Below the pieces are notes generated by a model. That model was given only the letters and a program-made list of their open reading frames with translations, made no database searches and was not told where the DNA came from. From the NCBI RefSeq assembly GCF_003054245.1, contig NZ_QBKR01000006.1:1-64000 (forward strand): DNA of 64,000 nt, given 5' to 3'. A program made the translations under genes and the position numbers. Each line of letters begins with the position of its first letter. Position 1 is the first letter of the stretch. Of this stretch, positions 13,433-23,386 are shown piece by piece. This DNA comes from Melghirimyces profundicolus. GTDB lineage: Bacteria > Bacillota > Bacilli > Thermoactinomycetales > DSM-45169.

Positions 13433-14029
13433 TCAGTTTTCATTGGTTTTCATCCACCGGGGGAGAAAGCGACCCCGGTTTTCCATCTCTTCCCGGTAAG
13501 GGGTCACCTGGGTCAAGACCCGCTCCTCCGCCGGAATCCGTACCTTGAGAAGAATCCACAAATTGAGGACGGTGAAAACGGCCGCCGAGACAAAGGCACC
13601 GAAGACCAGCGGAAGGGTCAGAAGCTCGGTGACCACTACCACATAATTGGGGTGGCGCAGATAGCGGTAAGGGCCGCGGACCACCGGCCGGTGGCCGGGG
13701 GCCACCATCACCCGGGTGTTCCAGTAGGGGCCGAGAGAGCGAATGCACCAGACCCTGAGACCCTGGGCCGCGAGAAACAGAGCGAAGGGAGCCGGCCACC
13801 AAGAAGGAGGGACCGCTTTAAATACCGCTACTTCCAGGGCGAGACCGACCAGGAAGAAGAGATGGACCCCGACCAGAAGAGGATAATGCTTCCGGCCCAC
13901 TTCATACCCGCCCTGGCGCCGGATCCAGCGGGCATGTCTCCGTGCGATGGCAAGCTCCGCCCCCCGCTGGAGGATCAGGATGGCAAAAGCTGCTGCAAAC
14001 CAACCGTTCAATCCCACCAACTCTCTCAC
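13433..14029 (-). CDS. Isoprenylcysteine carboxyl methyltransferase (ICMT) family membrane protein
   Basis: 198 aa, four or five membrane helices. The family signature is GPYRYLRHPNY near residue 122, with the partner E..L and the late EERVL, typical of ICMT/phospholipid methyltransferase proteins that use S-adenosylmethionine. The start is GTG overlapping the type III PKS stop (GTGA), so the two are coupled. In Bacillus subtilis the equivalent pair bpsA-bpsB makes triketide and tetraketide alkylpyrones and methylates them to alkylpyrone methyl ethers; the same role is inferred here. A second GTG lies one codon upstream. Confidence 0.82.
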   Translation of the reverse strand: MRELVGLNGWFAAAFAILILQRGAELAIARRHARWIRRQGGYEVGRKHYPLLVGVHLFFLVGLALEVAVFKAVPPSWWPAPFALFLAAQGLRVWCIRSLGPYWNTRVMVAPGHRPVVRGPYRYLRHPNYVVVVTELLTLPLVFGAFVSAAVFTVLNLWILLKVRIPAEERVLTQVTPYREEMENRGRFLPRWMKTNEN

Positions 14030-15090
14030 CACCCGATCAGGATCAATTCGGAACTGAACCCGGGTCCCAAGGCCGTCAACAAGCCGTATTCCCCCGGCTG
14101 ATGCCGTTCCTTCAGTTCCCTTTCCAGGACAAACAACACCGTCGCCGAAGACATATTTCCGTACTCCCCGAGAACCCTTCGGGAATGAGTCAAGGCTTCC
14201 CCGGAAAGGTCCAGGGCTTTCTCGTAGGCCGCCAACACTTTGGCTCCGCCGGGATGCGCGATGAAACGACGGATCCGGTCCAGGGAGATCCCGGTCCGAC
14301 TCAGGAATTCTTCCACCGCCGGCAGGATTCCCTTCCGGACGATGGCGGGGATATCCCGGGAAAAAATCACTTTTAACCCGTCGTCGGTCACGTCCCATCC
14401 CATCACGTCTTCCGAGTCGGGCCAGGTGGTGCTCATCGTGTCCAACACACGGGGCAGCGGACCGGACAGATGATCCACGGAAACTTCATCCCCTGTCAGC
14501 AAAACGGCGGCCGCCCCGTCGGCAAAGAGCGAAGAGGCCACCAAGTTGCTTTTGGAACGGTCGTTGGGACGGAAGGTCAAACTGCACAGTTCCACTGCCA
14601 AAAGGACCACCCGGCTTTCCGGAAACGCCCGGGTATACTCATATGCCCGCGCCAAACCAGAGGCTCCCCCCGCACATCCCAGTCCCCATACGGGAGTGCG
14701 TTTGACATGGCGGTTCAACCCGAGGCGGTTGACCAGCCGGGCATCGATACTCGGGGTGGCCAGTCCGGAGGTGGAAACAAAAAAAAGATGGTCCACCTCC
14801 GCCGGCGAAAGACTGACAGGTTCCAAACATCGACGCACCGCTTCTTCCCCCAGCCGGCATGCCGTTTCCGTATAAGCCCGGTTCCGTTCGGAGAACCCCC
14901 GGTCCTGTTCAAACCACTGCCGGGGCCGGCTCAACCGCCGGGTCTGAATTTCAGCATTGTCAAAAACAGGCAAATAGCGGTCGAAATTCCGGAATGAATC
15001 CTTAAACAGGCGTGTGGCAAACGCTCTCGCTTCCTGCTGTTCCAGGATGTGTTCCGGGACCGCCGTCCCTACGGACACGATCCGCGGCAT
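14026..15090 (-). CDS. Type III polyketide synthase (BpsA-like)
   Basis: 354 aa chalcone-synthase-fold enzyme. The catalytic triad is visible: Cys139 in WGLGCAGGASG, His in FIAHPGG near residue 275 and Asn in YGNMSSAT near residue 308. The late ALGPGFS loop is also present. Such enzymes extend acyl-CoA starters with malonyl-CoA, and the Bacillus homologue makes alkylpyrones. The start is the ATG of MPRIVSVG after GGAGGGA; an upstream in-frame ATG lacks a ribosome site. It is coupled to the downstream ICMT-like methyltransferase. The product identity is inferred only. Confidence 0.88.
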   Translation of the reverse strand: MPRIVSVGTAVPEHILEQQEARAFATRLFKDSFRNFDRYLPVFDNAEIQTRRLSRPRQWFEQDRGFSERNRAYTETACRLGEEAVRRCLEPVSLSPAEVDHLFFVSTSGLATPSIDARLVNRLGLNRHVKRTPVWGLGCAGGASGLARAYEYTRAFPESRVVLLAVELCSLTFRPNDRSKSNLVASSLFADGAAAVLLTGDEVSVDHLSGPLPRVLDTMSTTWPDSEDVMGWDVTDDGLKVIFSRDIPAIVRKGILPAVEEFLSRTGISLDRIRRFIAHPGGAKVLAAYEKALDLSGEALTHSRRVLGEYGNMSSATVLFVLERELKERHQPGEYGLLTALGPGFSSELILIGW

Positions 15091-15223
15091 GGGACAGTCC
15101 CTCCATCCTTGCGGTCGGCCTTCCCGCAATCTTTCCGTTAGTCTGCTCCTCTCTTTTGGAAATATACACCAATGAGGAGGGGTTACAAGAGCCTGCTCCA
15201 ACACCCACTCACCGGATCATCAA

Positions 15224-16652: not shown

Positions 16653-18268
16653 AACGGCTCACACCGGATTGCCTACTATCTCTATCACCGGGCCGGCCAA
16701 TTCGACCCCGGACAAATGATGATCCTGGCCCCCAACCGAATCTTTCTCGGTTTTGTAGCCGGGGTGTTGCCGGAACTGGGAGTACTGGATGTCCACCAGA
16801 CGACCTTCCCCGACTTTTTTATGGAAGAAGTCGGCAGAAAAATGAAACTGACCGATCCCTCGGAAAAGCTGCGGGCCTTCATCCAAGGAGATCCGTCTGA
16901 CCCCACTCTCCGCTTACGGAAATGGGCATCCGGCTACAAAGGGTCGATGGCGTACAAGGAGAAGGTGGACGCGTACCTGGATGAGGTGATCGAGGAACTG
17001 ATGCCCCGGGAGGATCTGGTTCTGGGAAAAAAAGACACCATCCGGACGCGGGAGGAGATGAAAGACTGGATCCGCCGGGAGTACGCCCACCTCCCCGTAT
17101 ACAAACGACTGGATAAAATCCGAAAAATTCTGGGGAGAGAACTGAAAGCGAAGACGGAAGAGGTGCTTCGGGAGGCCGAACAATATTACGACGGGAAGAT
17201 CGACCGGGCCTTCCTCAAAATCCGGGACCCCGAAAAGCGCCGGGCCCGGGTGATCCACTGGATGGACCGAAAAGAAACGATGCTGGAGAAGATCCGGCAG
17301 TCGTCCCAAGCACTCCTGCCCCGTTTCATGAAACAATTCAAGAAGAAGGATGTCTTCAGCCATTACCGGGATTTCATGCGGGACGAAGCAAGATTCCGGG
17401 ACCTGCCGAAGGAAAAAGACACCTTTCTGCGCCGATCCACCTTGGAACTTCTAATCCATAAGCGGATCGAAATTGAAGACACCGCCGCCCTCCTGTATCT
17501 GAAACACCGCTTGTACGGCATCCCCAACAAACGGAAGCTGAAACATGTGGTCATCGATGAAGCCCAGGACTTCAGCGTGTTCCAGATTTACGCCCTGAAA
17601 GAAGCGATCGGAACCCGAATCTTCACGATCCTCGGGGACTTGGCCCAAGGGATCCACGGATACCGGGGCATCCGGAACTGGCACGACATCTTGGAGCATG
17701 TCTTCCCGGAAGACGGCTGCCAGTTTCGAACCCTGGAGAAAAGCTACCGGACCACGGTGGAAATCATGACTCTGGCCAATCAGGTGCTCCGCCGGATGGA
17801 ATCCCCGGACATCTTCACCGCCCGGCCGGTGGTCCGCCCGGGGATCCCCCCGTCGTCCGTCTGTTCAGAGAGTCCCGGGAGATGACGGGACCGATACTGC
17901 AAGAGCTGGATATCGCACGGGAGCACCACCGACGAACCGTCGCCGCCATCGGCCGCTCCCAGGCGGAATGCGAGAGACTCCATGACTTGCTGAGAAAGGA
18001 GACCGACCTCTCTCTCCAGCTCCTTACGGAAGAAGAGACTTTCCAAGAGTCCAATCTGGTGATCCTTCCCTCCCACGTGGCCAAAGGGCTGGAATTTGAC
18101 CAGGTGATCCTGGTCAATCTGGAAGAACCCTACACCGAAGACGAACTGGATCTGAAACTCCTCTACGTGGCGATGACCCGTCCGCTCCACCGGTTGGCGC
18201 TCTTCGCCCGGGAGGGGATGTTCCCGCTCTTGGAAAAACTGGACGACCGCTGTTACCAACGCATCTGA
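16653..18268 (+). pseudogene. helD: Decayed HelD (RNA polymerase recycling / UvrD-like helicase): 5'-truncated and frameshifted
   Basis: The open frame starts right after a TGA with GSHRIAYYLYHRAG, which in HelD comes directly after the Walker A P-loop, so the roughly 200-residue N-terminal arm and the P-loop lysine are gone. The rest is recognisable: APNRIFL, the long helical insertion (residues 90-270), DEAQD (Walker B), ILGDLAQGIHGYRG and EKSYRTTVEI. After residue 380 the frame breaks at the GGGG run 17840-17843; adding one G joins GDPPVVRLFRESREM and the second segment 17882-18268, which carries HVAKGLEFDQVI and YVAMTRP (helicase motifs V and VI). HelD normally strips stalled RNA polymerase from DNA; this copy cannot bind ATP. 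A functional copy probably exists elsewhere. Confidence 0.8.
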
Positions 18269-20316: not shown

Positions 20317-20345
20317 GAGAAAAGCCCCCGAGAGGGGGCTCTTTC
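20317..20345 (-). terminator. Intrinsic terminator of the cory-CC-star/ArsA unit
   Basis: Stem AAAGCCCCC (20321-20329) / GGGGGCTCTT, with TTTTCTC following on the minus strand. It overlaps the stop codon of the ATPase gene. Confidence 0.8.
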
Positions 20346-21342
20346 ACAATGATCCGAATCCCTCCGCCTCCAACCGTTCGGCGACTGCCGCCACGCCGGA
20401 AAGTCCCCGGATGTCCTCGGGCTGGAGGGGGATCCGGATCTTGGGGAGATCGGCAAACCGTTTCCCGATTTCCTCCAGGTAGACCTTCTCCCTCTCTTTC
20501 CGCCGGGCCAGAAAGGCTCCGTCCGCCTCATCGGGCAGAACGCGGTTGACGATCACCCCCCCGACCGGAACGCCGTATTTTTTCAGAAGGTCCATCGCCT
20601 TGGCCGATTCCAGGATGGAGAGGCGCTCCGGGTTGAGGACGAAGTGGAAGGAGGTGACATCGGGGTTGAGAAGCCGCTCCCGGGCAGAGGCGAACCGGTT
20701 TTTTCGCCGCTCCAGCAGTTCATGAACCCGGTCTTTGGGATCTTCCGACACCCCGGCCACGTTGTGGAGCATCCGATGGAGTTCCCGGGTCTTCTCCCGA
20801 CGGGCGAGCATTCCCTCCACCCAGACCCCCATCAATTCGGGGAGGGACAAGAGACGGAGAGTGTGGCCCGTCGGTGCGGTGTCGAAGACGATCCGGTCAT
20901 ACTCCGACTCCGCCGACAGGATGATGGAGACCATGTCATCGAAGAGAGCCGCCTCGTCCGCTCCGGGGGAGTCAGCGGCGAAATCCATCTGCCGTTCCAC
21001 TTCCTGCCACAGCCCCGGGGCAGCCAGCCCCTTCAGGTTGCCCTTCACTTCCTCCAAGTAACGCCGGGAGGCTTGCGCCGGGTCGATCTCCCGTACCCAG
21101 AGGTTCTCCGCTGCCCCGACGGGATCCGAACCGGCCTTCACTTCGAGCAAATCCCCCACCGAATGGGCCGGGTCGGTGGAAACCAACAGTGTTTTATGCC
21201 CCCGCCGGGCCAAAGCCACCGCGTAGGAAGCTGAACAGGTGGTTTTGCCCACCCCGCCTTTGCCGCCGAAAAAGGCGATCTTTTCCCCTTTGGATCCACC
21301 CCGTTTGATCTCTTTCTTCTTTCCAAACAGCGTCAGCAGCAT
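20344..21342 (-). CDS. ArsA/TRC40-family ATPase
   Basis: 332 aa from MLLTLFGKKKE. The deviant Walker A GKGGVGKTT is at residues 27-35. Switch I is STDPAHSVGDLL, Walker B/switch II is VFDTAPTGHTLRLL, and the A-loop region is PLQPEDIRG near the C-terminus. It is a single-copy (one P-loop) ArsA-like protein like TRC40/Get3, not the two-domain arsenite pump ATPase, and no arsB or arsR lies nearby. The ATG lies inside the last codons of the upstream cory-CC-star gene (AAATGCTGCTGA), a tight overlap implying coupled translation. The work done by this pair is unknown; client-protein or membrane-insertion handling is a guess from TRC40. Confidence 0.85.
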   Translation of the reverse strand: MLLTLFGKKKEIKRGGSKGEKIAFFGGKGGVGKTTCSASYAVALARRGHKTLLVSTDPAHSVGDLLEVKAGSDPVGAAENLWVREIDPAQASRRYLEEVKGNLKGLAAPGLWQEVERQMDFAADSPGADEAALFDDMVSIILSAESEYDRIVFDTAPTGHTLRLLSLPELMGVWVEGMLARREKTRELHRMLHNVAGVSEDPKDRVHELLERRKNRFASARERLLNPDVTSFHFVLNPERLSILESAKAMDLLKKYGVPVGGVIVNRVLPDEADGAFLARRKEREKVYLEEIGKRFADLPKIRIPLQPEDIRGLSGVAAVAERLEAEGFGSL

Positions 21343-21611
21343 TTGAACCCGTCCAGAGGCGATTTTTCCATCCCCATCCGTTGATGCCATTCATGAAAGT
21401 CTTCCAGCATGAAGGGCATCAGCTCCAGGGTATAGTAGGAGACCGGGTTGGGGATCCCCAGCATTTCCGAAAAAGCGAGGAGTTTGAAAACATCCTCCTC
21501 GTTCCGGATCTCCTTCAGCATGGTGCGGCGGTAAGGGGCAAAATACATTTCCTCATAGAAGTGTTTGATCTTTTCCCACAGTTCGCTGGCTTTCTCCCGG
21601 TCCAAAGCCAA
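21333..21611 (-). CDS. cory-CC-star-type small protein
   Basis: 92 aa, helical, ending in the strict C-terminus FKCC-stop, the trait after which this small family is named. Members are found directly upstream of ArsA-like ATPases, as here. The start appears to be TTG (TTGGCTTTGGAC) preceded by GGAGGGG. The middle carries YFAPYRRTMLKEIRNEEDVF and the late FHEWHQRMGM. The last codons TGC TGC TGA contain the start of the ATPase gene, so an exact CC ending is tied to translation of the partner. The function of the terminal cysteine pair is not known; metal or redox chemistry is a fair guess. Confidence 0.8.
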   Translation of the reverse strand: MALDREKASELWEKIKHFYEEMYFAPYRRTMLKEIRNEEDVFKLLAFSEMLGIPNPVSYYTLELMPFMLEDFHEWHQRMGMEKSPLDGFKCC

Positions 21612-21640
21612 TGGCGACCCCTCCTTCCAAATGTGAATGA

Positions 21641-21667
21641 AAAGGAAACCGCGTGTGACGGTTTCCT
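21641..21667 (-). terminator. Intrinsic terminator of cstA
   Basis: Stem GGAAACCG (21644-21651) / CGGTTTCC (21659-21666) followed on the minus strand by TTTTCATTC. It lies about 22 bases after the cstA stop. Confidence 0.75.
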
Positions 21668-21688: not shown

Positions 21689-23386
21689 TCACGCCTGGGC
21701 ACCGGGCCCACGGATCCCCTGGCTGCGCTGCCGGAAGTAGGCGGCGACCCCCTCGAAGATCAGCCAGACGTTGAGAGCGAGGATCAGGATCCCCACCACC
21801 ACCAGCAGCAATTTGCCTTGATCCACATATCCCATGATACTCTCCAACATGCTCCAAGTGGTCATGGTCACGACGAAGAACAACGGGATCAGGGAGACGA
21901 GGTAGTTGCGTCCCCATTTCCACAGCATCAGGGTGACGACAATCAGAGAGAGGCCGGCGGTCAGCTGGTTGGTCGTTCCGAACAGCGGCCAAAGGACCAT
22001 TCCGCCTGCGCCCGGGTTGGCGGGATCGGCGAGGAAGGCCAGGGCCACACAGGAGAGAAAGGCAATCACGGTGCTGGTGTTGATGTTCTTCAGTGCACCG
22101 ACGTTATACTGCTCCCCGATTTCCGAAAGGATGAAGCGTTGCAGCCGCATGGAGGTGTCCAGCGTGGTGGCCGCGAAGGCGACGATCATGATGGAGATGA
22201 AGGTGGTCCCGACCACGGCGGGAATCCCGAGACTGGCGAGAAAATTTCCCGCCCCGGTAACGAAGGCCCCCACCCCGCCGGTGCTGGCGGACTCCCAGGA
22301 AGCGTAATGCTCGGACCATTTGTCGATGGAAGCAAACCCGGCGGCGGTGGCCATCACGGCCATCAAGGCCAGCAAACCTTCTCCCATGGCGCCAAAATAA
22401 CCGACAAACCGGGCGTCCGTCTCCTTATCCAGCTGTTTGGAGGAAGTCCCGGAACTCACCAGCCCGTGGAAGCCGGAGATGGCCCCGCAGGCGATGGTGA
22501 CGAAGAGCAGCGGCACCAGGTTGGGCGTTCCTGCCGGAACCTCGCTGTTGAAGAAGGGGGCGTTGAATTCCGGACCGGTGATGAACAGGCCGAGATAAAG
22601 GACCCCCAGCCCCAAAAACAGCATGTGGGAGTTGATGTAGTCCCGGGGCTGAAGCAAGAGCCACACCGGCAGCCGGGAGGCGATGGCTCCGTACAAGAGC
22701 ATCACGATCACCCAGAAGCCGGTCAAAGGCATCCCGGCAACGGTCTCCGGCAGCTGAACGGGATTGCCGGCGCCGACAAAGATGAAAGCGAACAGGAGCA
22801 ACAGGCCGATGATCGACGGCCAGAAAAGTCCCATCCCCCGTTTGTACACGAGGAACCCGATGATCATGGCGACCGGCAATTGCAGCCAGTACGGCAACAC
22901 GCTTTCCGGGAACCCGGTGAAGAGGTTGGCGATCACAACCGCGAACACCGCGTTCACCAACAGCAACAGGAAGAAGATGATCAAGAGGAACAGACCTTTG
23001 GCCCGGGGACCGATCACGGAGTGGGTGATCACCCCGACGGATTTTCCTTTATTCCGGACGGAAGCCCACAAGGTCCCGAAATCGTGCATACCGGCGAAGA
23101 AGATGGTTCCCAGAACCACCCACAACAGCGCCGGACCCCAGCCCCAGATCACCGCAATGGCCGGCCCGACGATCGGGGCGGCTCCGGCCACGGAGCTGAA
23201 GTGGTGTCCCCAAAGAACGAACTTGTTGGTGGGCAGATGGTCCACCCCGTCCCGGAATTCATGGGCCGGTGTCCGATAGTTCGGGTCAAGCCGGAATACT
23301 CTTTCTGCTAAATATTTTGAATAAAGACGGTAACCAAAAAAGAACAAAATCAACGAACCGAGTGTCATCAGAACCGGTTGGCTCAT
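21689..23386 (-). CDS. cstA: Carbon starvation protein CstA (pyruvate/peptide transporter)
   Basis: 565 aa with about 15-16 membrane helices. CstA signatures: FGYRLYSKYL in the first helix, DYRTP-like NYRTPAHEF, the strongly conserved NKFVLWGHHFSSVAGAAPIVGPAIA near residue 52, and AGMHDFGTL. CstA proteins take up pyruvate and have been linked to peptide use in starvation. The start is the ATG of MSQPVLM preceded by GGGGGAGA; the open frame continues upstream without a ribosome site. It is shorter than the E. coli protein (701 aa) but in the range of Gram-positive members. No two-component pair sits next to it. Confidence 0.92.
   Translation of the reverse strand: MSQPVLMTLGSLILFFFGYRLYSKYLAERVFRLDPNYRTPAHEFRDGVDHLPTNKFVLWGHHFSSVAGAAPIVGPAIAVIWGWGPALLWVVLGTIFFAGMHDFGTLWASVRNKGKSVGVITHSVIGPRAKGLFLLIIFFLLLLVNAVFAVVIANLFTGFPESVLPYWLQLPVAMIIGFLVYKRGMGLFWPSIIGLLLLFAFIFVGAGNPVQLPETVAGMPLTGFWVIVMLLYGAIASRLPVWLLLQPRDYINSHMLFLGLGVLYLGLFITGPEFNAPFFNSEVPAGTPNLVPLLFVTIACGAISGFHGLVSSGTSSKQLDKETDARFVGYFGAMGEGLLALMAVMATAAGFASIDKWSEHYASWESASTGGVGAFVTGAGNFLASLGIPAVVGTTFISIMIVAFAATTLDTSMRLQRFILSEIGEQYNVGALKNINTSTVIAFLSCVALAFLADPANPGAGGMVLWPLFGTTNQLTAGLSLIVVTLMLWKWGRNYLVSLIPLFFVVTMTTWSMLESIMGYVDQGKLLLVVVGILILALNVWLIFEGVAAYFRQRSQGIRGPGAQA

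Follow-up and report, generated by a model that had tools for sequence, protein, structure and literature searches.

Why should a small bacterial protein end in two adjacent cysteines whose codons contain the start of the next gene? The question is raised by a locus in the window, the 64,000-nucleotide stretch of Melghirimyces profundicolus DNA that was analysed as a whole. A sequence-only reading had proposed that overlap with an ArsA-type ATPase gene forces the Cys-Cys ending, and it called the function of the pair unknown, a statement that leaves out a third gene, cstA, directly upstream of the pair. CstA transporters bring pyruvate into Escherichia coli and its kin, and the need of one of them for a small CC-ending partner is unexplained in the literature searched.

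The three genes lie on the minus strand in the operon order cstA, CC-star, ATPase. The first (21689-23386) encodes a CstA-family transporter of 565 amino acids (PF02554, E=2.2e-139). Between it and CC-star is a hairpin (21643-21667), followed by a T-rich stretch on the minus strand; the region has a z of -1.99, and 8 of 200 shuffled sequences fold equally well or better. The hairpin is predicted to be a possible partial terminator or RNA-stability element, and it could reduce expression of CC-star and the ATPase relative to cstA. A Shine-Dalgarno-like sequence, AAGGAGGGG (21618-21626, minus strand), stands ahead of the TTG start of CC-star at 21611. The CC-star gene (21333-21611, minus strand) encodes a 92-amino-acid helical protein, predicted to be soluble, which is a full-length member of NF041419 (cory-CC-star; 130.7 bits, cut-off 80) and has no match in a Pfam search, PF04328 (YbdD/YjiX) included. 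Its Cys-Cys-stop ending is as first read: the minus strand runs GGG TTC AAA TGC TGC TGA, Lys-Cys-Cys-stop at the end, with TGC TGC (21336-21341) encoding Cys91 and Cys92. The ATPase gene (20344-21342, minus strand) encodes a single-domain protein of the ArsA/Get3 type with 332 amino acids and the P-loop GGKGGVGKT. A terminator-like hairpin directly past its stop (20325-20337, minus strand) is likely the transcript end, although the call is weak by itself because nine terminator-like sites are seen in the region against 5.2 expected.

The placing of the ATPase ATG inside the CC-star tail is borne out as well. The frame ATG CTG CTG ACG runs from 21342, and ten bases, ATGCTGCTGA (21333-21342, minus strand), are shared, so that ATG CTG CTG falls within the Cys-Cys-stop codons; the two Cys codons dictate that the ATPase begins Met-Leu-Leu. 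This start is likely rather than proven, because a further in-frame ATG exists upstream at 21390. The codon ahead of Cys-Cys contributes its last base and the first Cys codon its TG, which always gives an NTG at position -10, or ATG if that base is A. Since any xCC tail yields such a codon, a single overlap alone is not above chance.

ATPase starts were surveyed at 111 loci, comprising 80 named loci, 30 from the window's class (out of 47 listed places) and the window. The NTG at -10 is in the ATPase frame at 45 of these (33 ATG, 10 GTG, 2 TTG) and absent from that frame at 66, and all 66 still end in CC. The overlap is thus not generally conserved across genomes, and the claim that it forces the ending fails. 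At 29 of the 111 loci (20 ATG, 7 GTG, 2 TTG) no possible ATPase start precedes the -10 codon, and at three of them (L062, L108, L127) it is the only start before the P-loop, so some lineages must use it; at L024, L054, L090 and others the nearest possible start is clearly past the CC-star stop. Under a stricter rule, overlap is present at 37 of 110 loci, one locus having been dropped by filters. On a FastTree phylogeny of the ATPase the overlap label changes at least 10 times, with nine changes forced by well-supported branches, and in the window's own order nine of ten loci in the tree overlap (L025 does not). The codon before Cys-Cys ends in A at 34 of 60 loci where the ATPase frame matches versus 10 of 51 in other frames, the lineages in both counts being non-independent. 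With CC invariant where overlap is lacking and the label changing on the tree, the tail is fixed while the overlap comes and goes. These comparisons indicate that the start codon is a product of the CC tail and not its cause, and that the overlap is secondary. Coupled production of the two proteins, as proposed earlier, is plausible at loci where the genes overlap.

The scan of named genomes gave at least 563 relatives, and the set of 80 loci is biased to close relatives because the best 80 were retained. In these best 80 of at least 563, the CC ending and a downstream ATPase gene are found without exception, and cstA lies upstream on the same strand at 77, including one locus (L122) where it is about 0.8 kb off. 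The two genes therefore belong together, as had been claimed: frequent separation, which the sequence-only reading itself had named as counting against it, is found for the overlap and not for gene adjacency. The 80 loci span Bacillota, Pseudomonadota, Actinomycetota, Gemmatimonadota and Campylobacterota. Upstream cstA is missing at L089, L093 and L121, the last offering just 2.85 kb of sequence. At L093, in a 1.9 Mb draft genome where no YbdD was detected, the CC-star/ATPase pair adjoins a long-type CstA, a possible partner swap. The family has a patchy distribution: in the window's class 45 of 398 genomes have a match to NF041419 above cut-off, and CC-star is present in 5 of 185 genomes in the class of Zobellella and in 16 of 200 Campylobacterota; among 14 control genomes the sole match, in Haloferax volcanii, is below cut-off. 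The 16 Campylobacterota loci, one of which (L236) is the genome of L075, all have CC, the FHxWH motif, cstA and the ATPase, the last about 1 kb off in L246.

The tail itself was examined in a core set of 110 members (the window, the 80 named loci and 29 from the window's class; L064 and L027, whose ATPases are identical, probably represent a single genome). The CC ending and FHxWH are both present in 110 of 110, and the terminal pair represents the sole cysteines of the protein in 94. Among the 80 named loci, each of the four TGY-TGY combinations and each of the three stop codons is used. In Campylobacterota, 12 of 16 tails carry extra cysteines, with three or four among the last six residues, in the forms PCxCC, PCLNCC and PCxCCC. 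A last-residue selenocysteine of the KCU-star type is found at none of the 16 Campylobacterota loci and none of the 110 core loci; all end in CC. The tail is probably a functional site of thiol or metal chemistry and not a by-product of gene overlap, which turns an overlapping-gene curiosity into a testable site.

An AlphaFold2 model of CC-star built with 57 sequences (pLDDT 78.9, pTM 0.56) is helical as far as residue 78; beyond that it has no secondary structure, at a pLDDT of about 69-76. Mobility of the tail is an assumption, as the coil is not low in confidence. A Foldseek search of the PDB with this model gives 0 matches, and a PDB sequence search gives one match only (E 1.1). No transmembrane-grade stretch is predicted in any of the 110 members; the best 19-residue hydropathy is 0.85 in the window protein, with a maximum of 1.46 in the set.

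The window locus is a known family in a published operon type. Castillo and Saier (2010; PMC2963123) describe, in the available part of their text, 26 CstA-CstX-ArsA operons, with CstX in 24 and with no ars genes. These share with the window the gene order, the sizes of about 90 and 330 amino acids, the single-domain ATPase and the lack of ars genes. CC-star is the CstX of these authors, equated by its size and its position between cstA and the arsA-like gene; however, a single transmembrane segment is stated for CstX, whereas the window protein and the CC-star members have none predicted. The available sections of PMC2963123 make no mention of a CC tail. In the literature searched, coverage of which was partial, this is the sole on-topic paper found for CstX with CstA and ArsA, the name cory-CC-star was not found, and no paper links CC tails with CstA. 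Within that literature two points are new: the recurrent start codon comes from a CC tail that exists independently of the overlap, and two CstA branches each have a CC-tailed small partner, drawn from families that show no detectable homology to each other. The first is an instance of a conserved protein ending that can repeatedly supply a start codon to a neighbouring gene.

The partner on the other branch is YbdD/YjiX (PF04328 Sel_put, DUF466; NF033934). In E. coli the gene after cstA is ybdD, and those after btsT are yjiX and then yjiA; YbdD and YjiX both end in RCC. The best 30 CstA matches in the window's class are all of the long type, and at all 30 a YbdD-type protein that ends in RCC follows CstA. 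The tails of 53 YbdD-type sequences (from E. coli and from class and gammaproteobacterial loci, with four entered twice) are CC in 51 and CPC in two (L186, L206); L204 gave no match in this count and ends in RCC on separate examination. Across 200 genomes of the window's class, 55 of 57 ybdD genes lie within 1 kb of the genome's listed long CstA; the exceptions are beside another listed CstA piece (G259) and on another contig (G322). In the class of Zobellella, CstA is upstream within the flank at 14 of 16 YbdD loci (not L196 or L198). Other CstA types, sampled at 20 loci with the second CstA of the window genome among them, have a CC-ending partner at 0 of the 19 with enough downstream sequence, L169 being uninformative as it ends just after CstA; chance CC-ending frames inside or against other genes occur at L172, L173 and L176.

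A tree of 60 CstA sequences, with 22 of the 77 named CC-star CstAs plus the window and 15 of the 30 long ones plus E. coli, places the YbdD type and one CC-less type opposite the CC-star type and another CC-less type. The split has an SH-aLRT of 100, obtained by a quick method whose tool warns of long branches. The window genome has a second CstA (L183; contig C18, match from 49482 on), which falls inside the CC-star-type clade; no CC partner and no ATPase adjoin it in the 5 kb fetched. Cys300 of CstA was considered as a special partner of the tail and set aside, since it does not vary in any CstA type of the 75-row alignment.

CC-star and YbdD/YjiX are alike in being small, in lacking a transmembrane-grade stretch, in ending in CC and in being encoded directly after a CstA-family gene. 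They differ in that no significant profile similarity joins them and that YbdD accompanies the long CstA type; only YbdD/YjiX has selenocysteine at the last position in some species. With hhalign and 32 YbdD sequences, the probability of homology is about 5% (E 0.007 one-to-one), and in global mode the real pair gives 0.5-2.0% versus 0.0-0.1% for five column shuffles. PDB sequence searches with YbdD and with CstA give no match, and a single-sequence model of YbdD (pTM 0.32) is too weak for fold comparison. Since homology is unsupported, any function of CC-star carried over from YbdD would be so by analogy only.

The two partners seldom occur together. Of the 80 named loci, 40 were checked for YbdD in their genomes, and 39 of these 40 CC-star genomes are without it. 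In the 200 class genomes it is present in 2 of 22 CC-star genomes versus 55 of 178 others (Fisher p 0.04, phylogeny ignored), a weak sign of avoidance in the window's class; among 185 genomes of the class of Zobellella the figures are 0 of 5 versus 16 of 180, with few CC-star genomes. A G3E GTPase was also considered as a general YbdD neighbour. The yjiA GTPase follows yjiX at the E. coli btsT-yjiX locus and at no other YbdD locus examined: tblastn with YjiA found none at 30 class and 17 further loci (1.5 kb flanks), and at the 30 class loci no ArsA- or YjiA-like gene lies within about 1 kb after the YbdD-type gene.

Experimental data exist for the YbdD branch. Pyruvate uptake in E. coli falls to 20% of wild type without ybdD, 13% without cstA and 25% without both (Hwang et al., 2018; PMC5847655, available text). 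According to the accessible part of PMC7730263 (which we take to be Gasperotti et al., 2020), a triple transporter mutant regained pyruvate growth and uptake when plasmid-borne cstA was supplied by itself; ybdD was presumably intact in that mutant, the accessible text containing no "ybd". A selenoproteome study (PMC4607533) reports in its available text that DUF466 has a terminal Cys-Sec in some Campylobacterales (Helicobacter hepaticus, H. cinaedi, Campylobacter lari) and proposes redox activity on that ground; "CstA" is absent from that text. The Cys-Sec form is termed KCU-star in NCBIfam, NF033934, as given in the available parts of PMC13188914 and PMC9312934. E. coli YbdD scores 70 bits against this model, below the cut-off of 85, and cory-CC-star, at a guess from the names, was named after KCU-star.

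The ATPase of the window matches TIGR00345 (GET3/ArsA/TRC40) with 303.9 bits against a cut-off of 135, and PF02374 with 288.9. The arsenical-pump model TIGR04291 is matched with 152 bits only, far below its cut-off of 650, and the protein has a single domain, not two. None of the columns of 81 aligned ATPases has Cys in at least 30% of sequences, and the genes tested from 13.4 to 28.8 kb of the window include no ars gene; on these grounds the earlier judgement that the ATPase is unlikely to be part of an arsenite pump is upheld. Its closest single-domain solved relatives, 3zq6 and 3ug6, are listed as arsenical pump-driving ATPases and are presumably archaeal and of Get3 type. The window ATPase resembles them in sequence family, in the P-loop and in alignment over the whole domain, but the Get3 zinc CxxC is missing from it, with GAFL at the aligned place. 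Lacking both a Cys-rich column and the Get3 zinc motif, it qualifies neither as an arsenite ATPase nor as a standard Get3. Dimerization is expected from its single domain, probably in the form of a homodimer.

The reading that we prefer, with a probability of about 0.55, is that CC-star is a soluble accessory of CstA with a chemically active dithiol tail, the counterpart of YbdD, assisted by the Get3-like ATPase, and that the overlap is secondary. CC-star would be a small helical protein serving its own CstA transporter, and its function would depend on the C-terminal dithiol, either through reversible disulfide formation or through binding of a soft metal jointly with two invariant histidines, His73 and His76. 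The metal mode is favoured by the Cys-rich tails and the paired invariant histidines, the redox mode by Sec-ending DUF466. On this CstA branch CC-star may be what YbdD/YjiX is on another. The ATPase might use ATP to assemble or regulate the CstA/CC-star pair. The overlap would be a convenience, in which the codon before Cys-Cys plus TG gives a start that some lineages perhaps use to couple translation. Several observations stand against this reading: the pyruvate uptake regained with plasmid cstA alone, as stated in the accessible text of PMC7730263; the unsupported homology to YbdD; the weak avoidance of YbdD in the window's class; the other CstA types without a CC partner; the invariance of the CstA cysteine in all types; the relatives without CC beside CstA; and distant relatives ending in DWCC that lie with a single ATPase gene away from cstA in five other genomes of the phylum, all of which have CstA elsewhere.

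A bolder form of the preferred reading is put forward tentatively, as one that may well prove wrong: two CstA branches would have gained the same C-terminal dithiol arm from two apparently unrelated families, the arm controlling or maturing the transporter, on one branch with a Get3-like ATPase as motor and with CC doubling as a start codon. The arm would take the form of Cys-Sec in some species and of a Cys-rich PCSCCC tail in some.

The strongest rival, although improbable, is the proposal of Castillo and Saier (2010) that the ATPase energizes transport by CstA, with CstX, here CC-star, as the linker that couples both. It draws on the operon and on co-evolution of the trees in 26 cases (PMC2963123, section 3.2 and other available text), and the gene order is the same here. 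Yet E. coli CstA is matched as a pyruvate/proton symporter (NF011590) with no ArsA-type gene adjoining, the ATPase and small protein were not found beside the other CstA types fetched, and the CC tail is left without a role.

Still more doubtful is a function of the ATPase as a Get3-like factor in membrane-protein handling, in which CC tails supply the thiols or zinc site of the missing CxxC. That 3zq6 and 3ug6 are closest, that GAFL replaces CxxC and that the 81 ATPases have no Cys-rich column are consistent with it, and two CC tails would provide four thiols. But no tail-anchored client is known here, and the ATPases of CC-less relatives are also without CxxC at that place, so its loss does not track the tail; a simple trade of the tail for the Get3 CxxC is ruled out by these relatives.

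The distant relatives come from a phylum search that gave 21 weaker CC-star matches, of which five end in CC and 16 do not. The five (L003-L007) have the tail DWCC and are without FHxWH. Thirteen homologues without CC (L008-L014, L018-L023) were compared further; the three weakest matches (L015-L017), also without CC, were excluded from later comparisons. At seven loci (L214-L218, L224, L225) the order is CstA, a CstX without CC and two tandem ArsA-type ATPases, the first of which does not contain the P-loop pattern used in the search. CC is thus not needed in all CstX-type systems, as CC-less relatives occur beside CstA; by sequence comparison it appears as a hallmark of the core family and not of every CstX-like protein. 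Variable C-termini, the other finding that the sequence-only reading had named against itself, are therefore seen among the distant relatives and not in the core family. That reading is, overall, partly supported.

The same relatives bear on a further alternative, rated slightly lower again, in which CC-star and the ATPase form a module of their own and the cstA neighbourhood is historical. The five DWCC-type pairs lie away from cstA, with unrelated neighbours where tested, and the L089 pair has no cstA within 4.9 kb upstream. Against this, cstA precedes the pair at 77 of the best 80 of at least 563 and at all 16 Campylobacterota loci, and the six checked genomes with unlinked pairs all have CstA elsewhere, in the five DWCC genomes on other contigs or far away.

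Vicinal cysteines in the small partner of an ArsA-like ATPase resemble the ArsD-ArsA pair, and handling of arsenite or another metalloid with CC-star as an ArsD-like chaperone could be read from this likeness. It is highly improbable, given that the ATPase has no Cys-rich column, that the neighbours tested include no ars genes and that the published operons of the same type hold none in the available text (PMC2963123). Least credible of all is the notion that the ATPase-start overlap, real and recurrent as it is, constrains the protein to end in CC, which is refuted by loci with separated genes, by the CC ending at loci without an in-frame NTG at -10 and by the repeated label changes on the ATPase tree.

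Several minor observations were made in passing. The tandem ATPases of the seven CC-less loci might form a heterodimer. A CstX-like relative whose tail reads HAPHIH (L008, L011, L012, L014; also L217, L218, L224, L225) has no immediately adjacent ATPase gene; the CstA-CstX-ATPase set of its genome is about 4 kb away. In the window, a UvrD-like helicase extends over two overlapping plus-strand frames, 16716-17885 and 17882-18268, with matches to the UvrD N-terminal and C-terminal domains, and is possibly a degenerate or frameshifted gene. A type III polyketide synthase of the chalcone synthase-like type (14026-15204, minus strand) is followed by an ICMT-family methyltransferase (13433-14032, minus strand), a pair known from bacilli.
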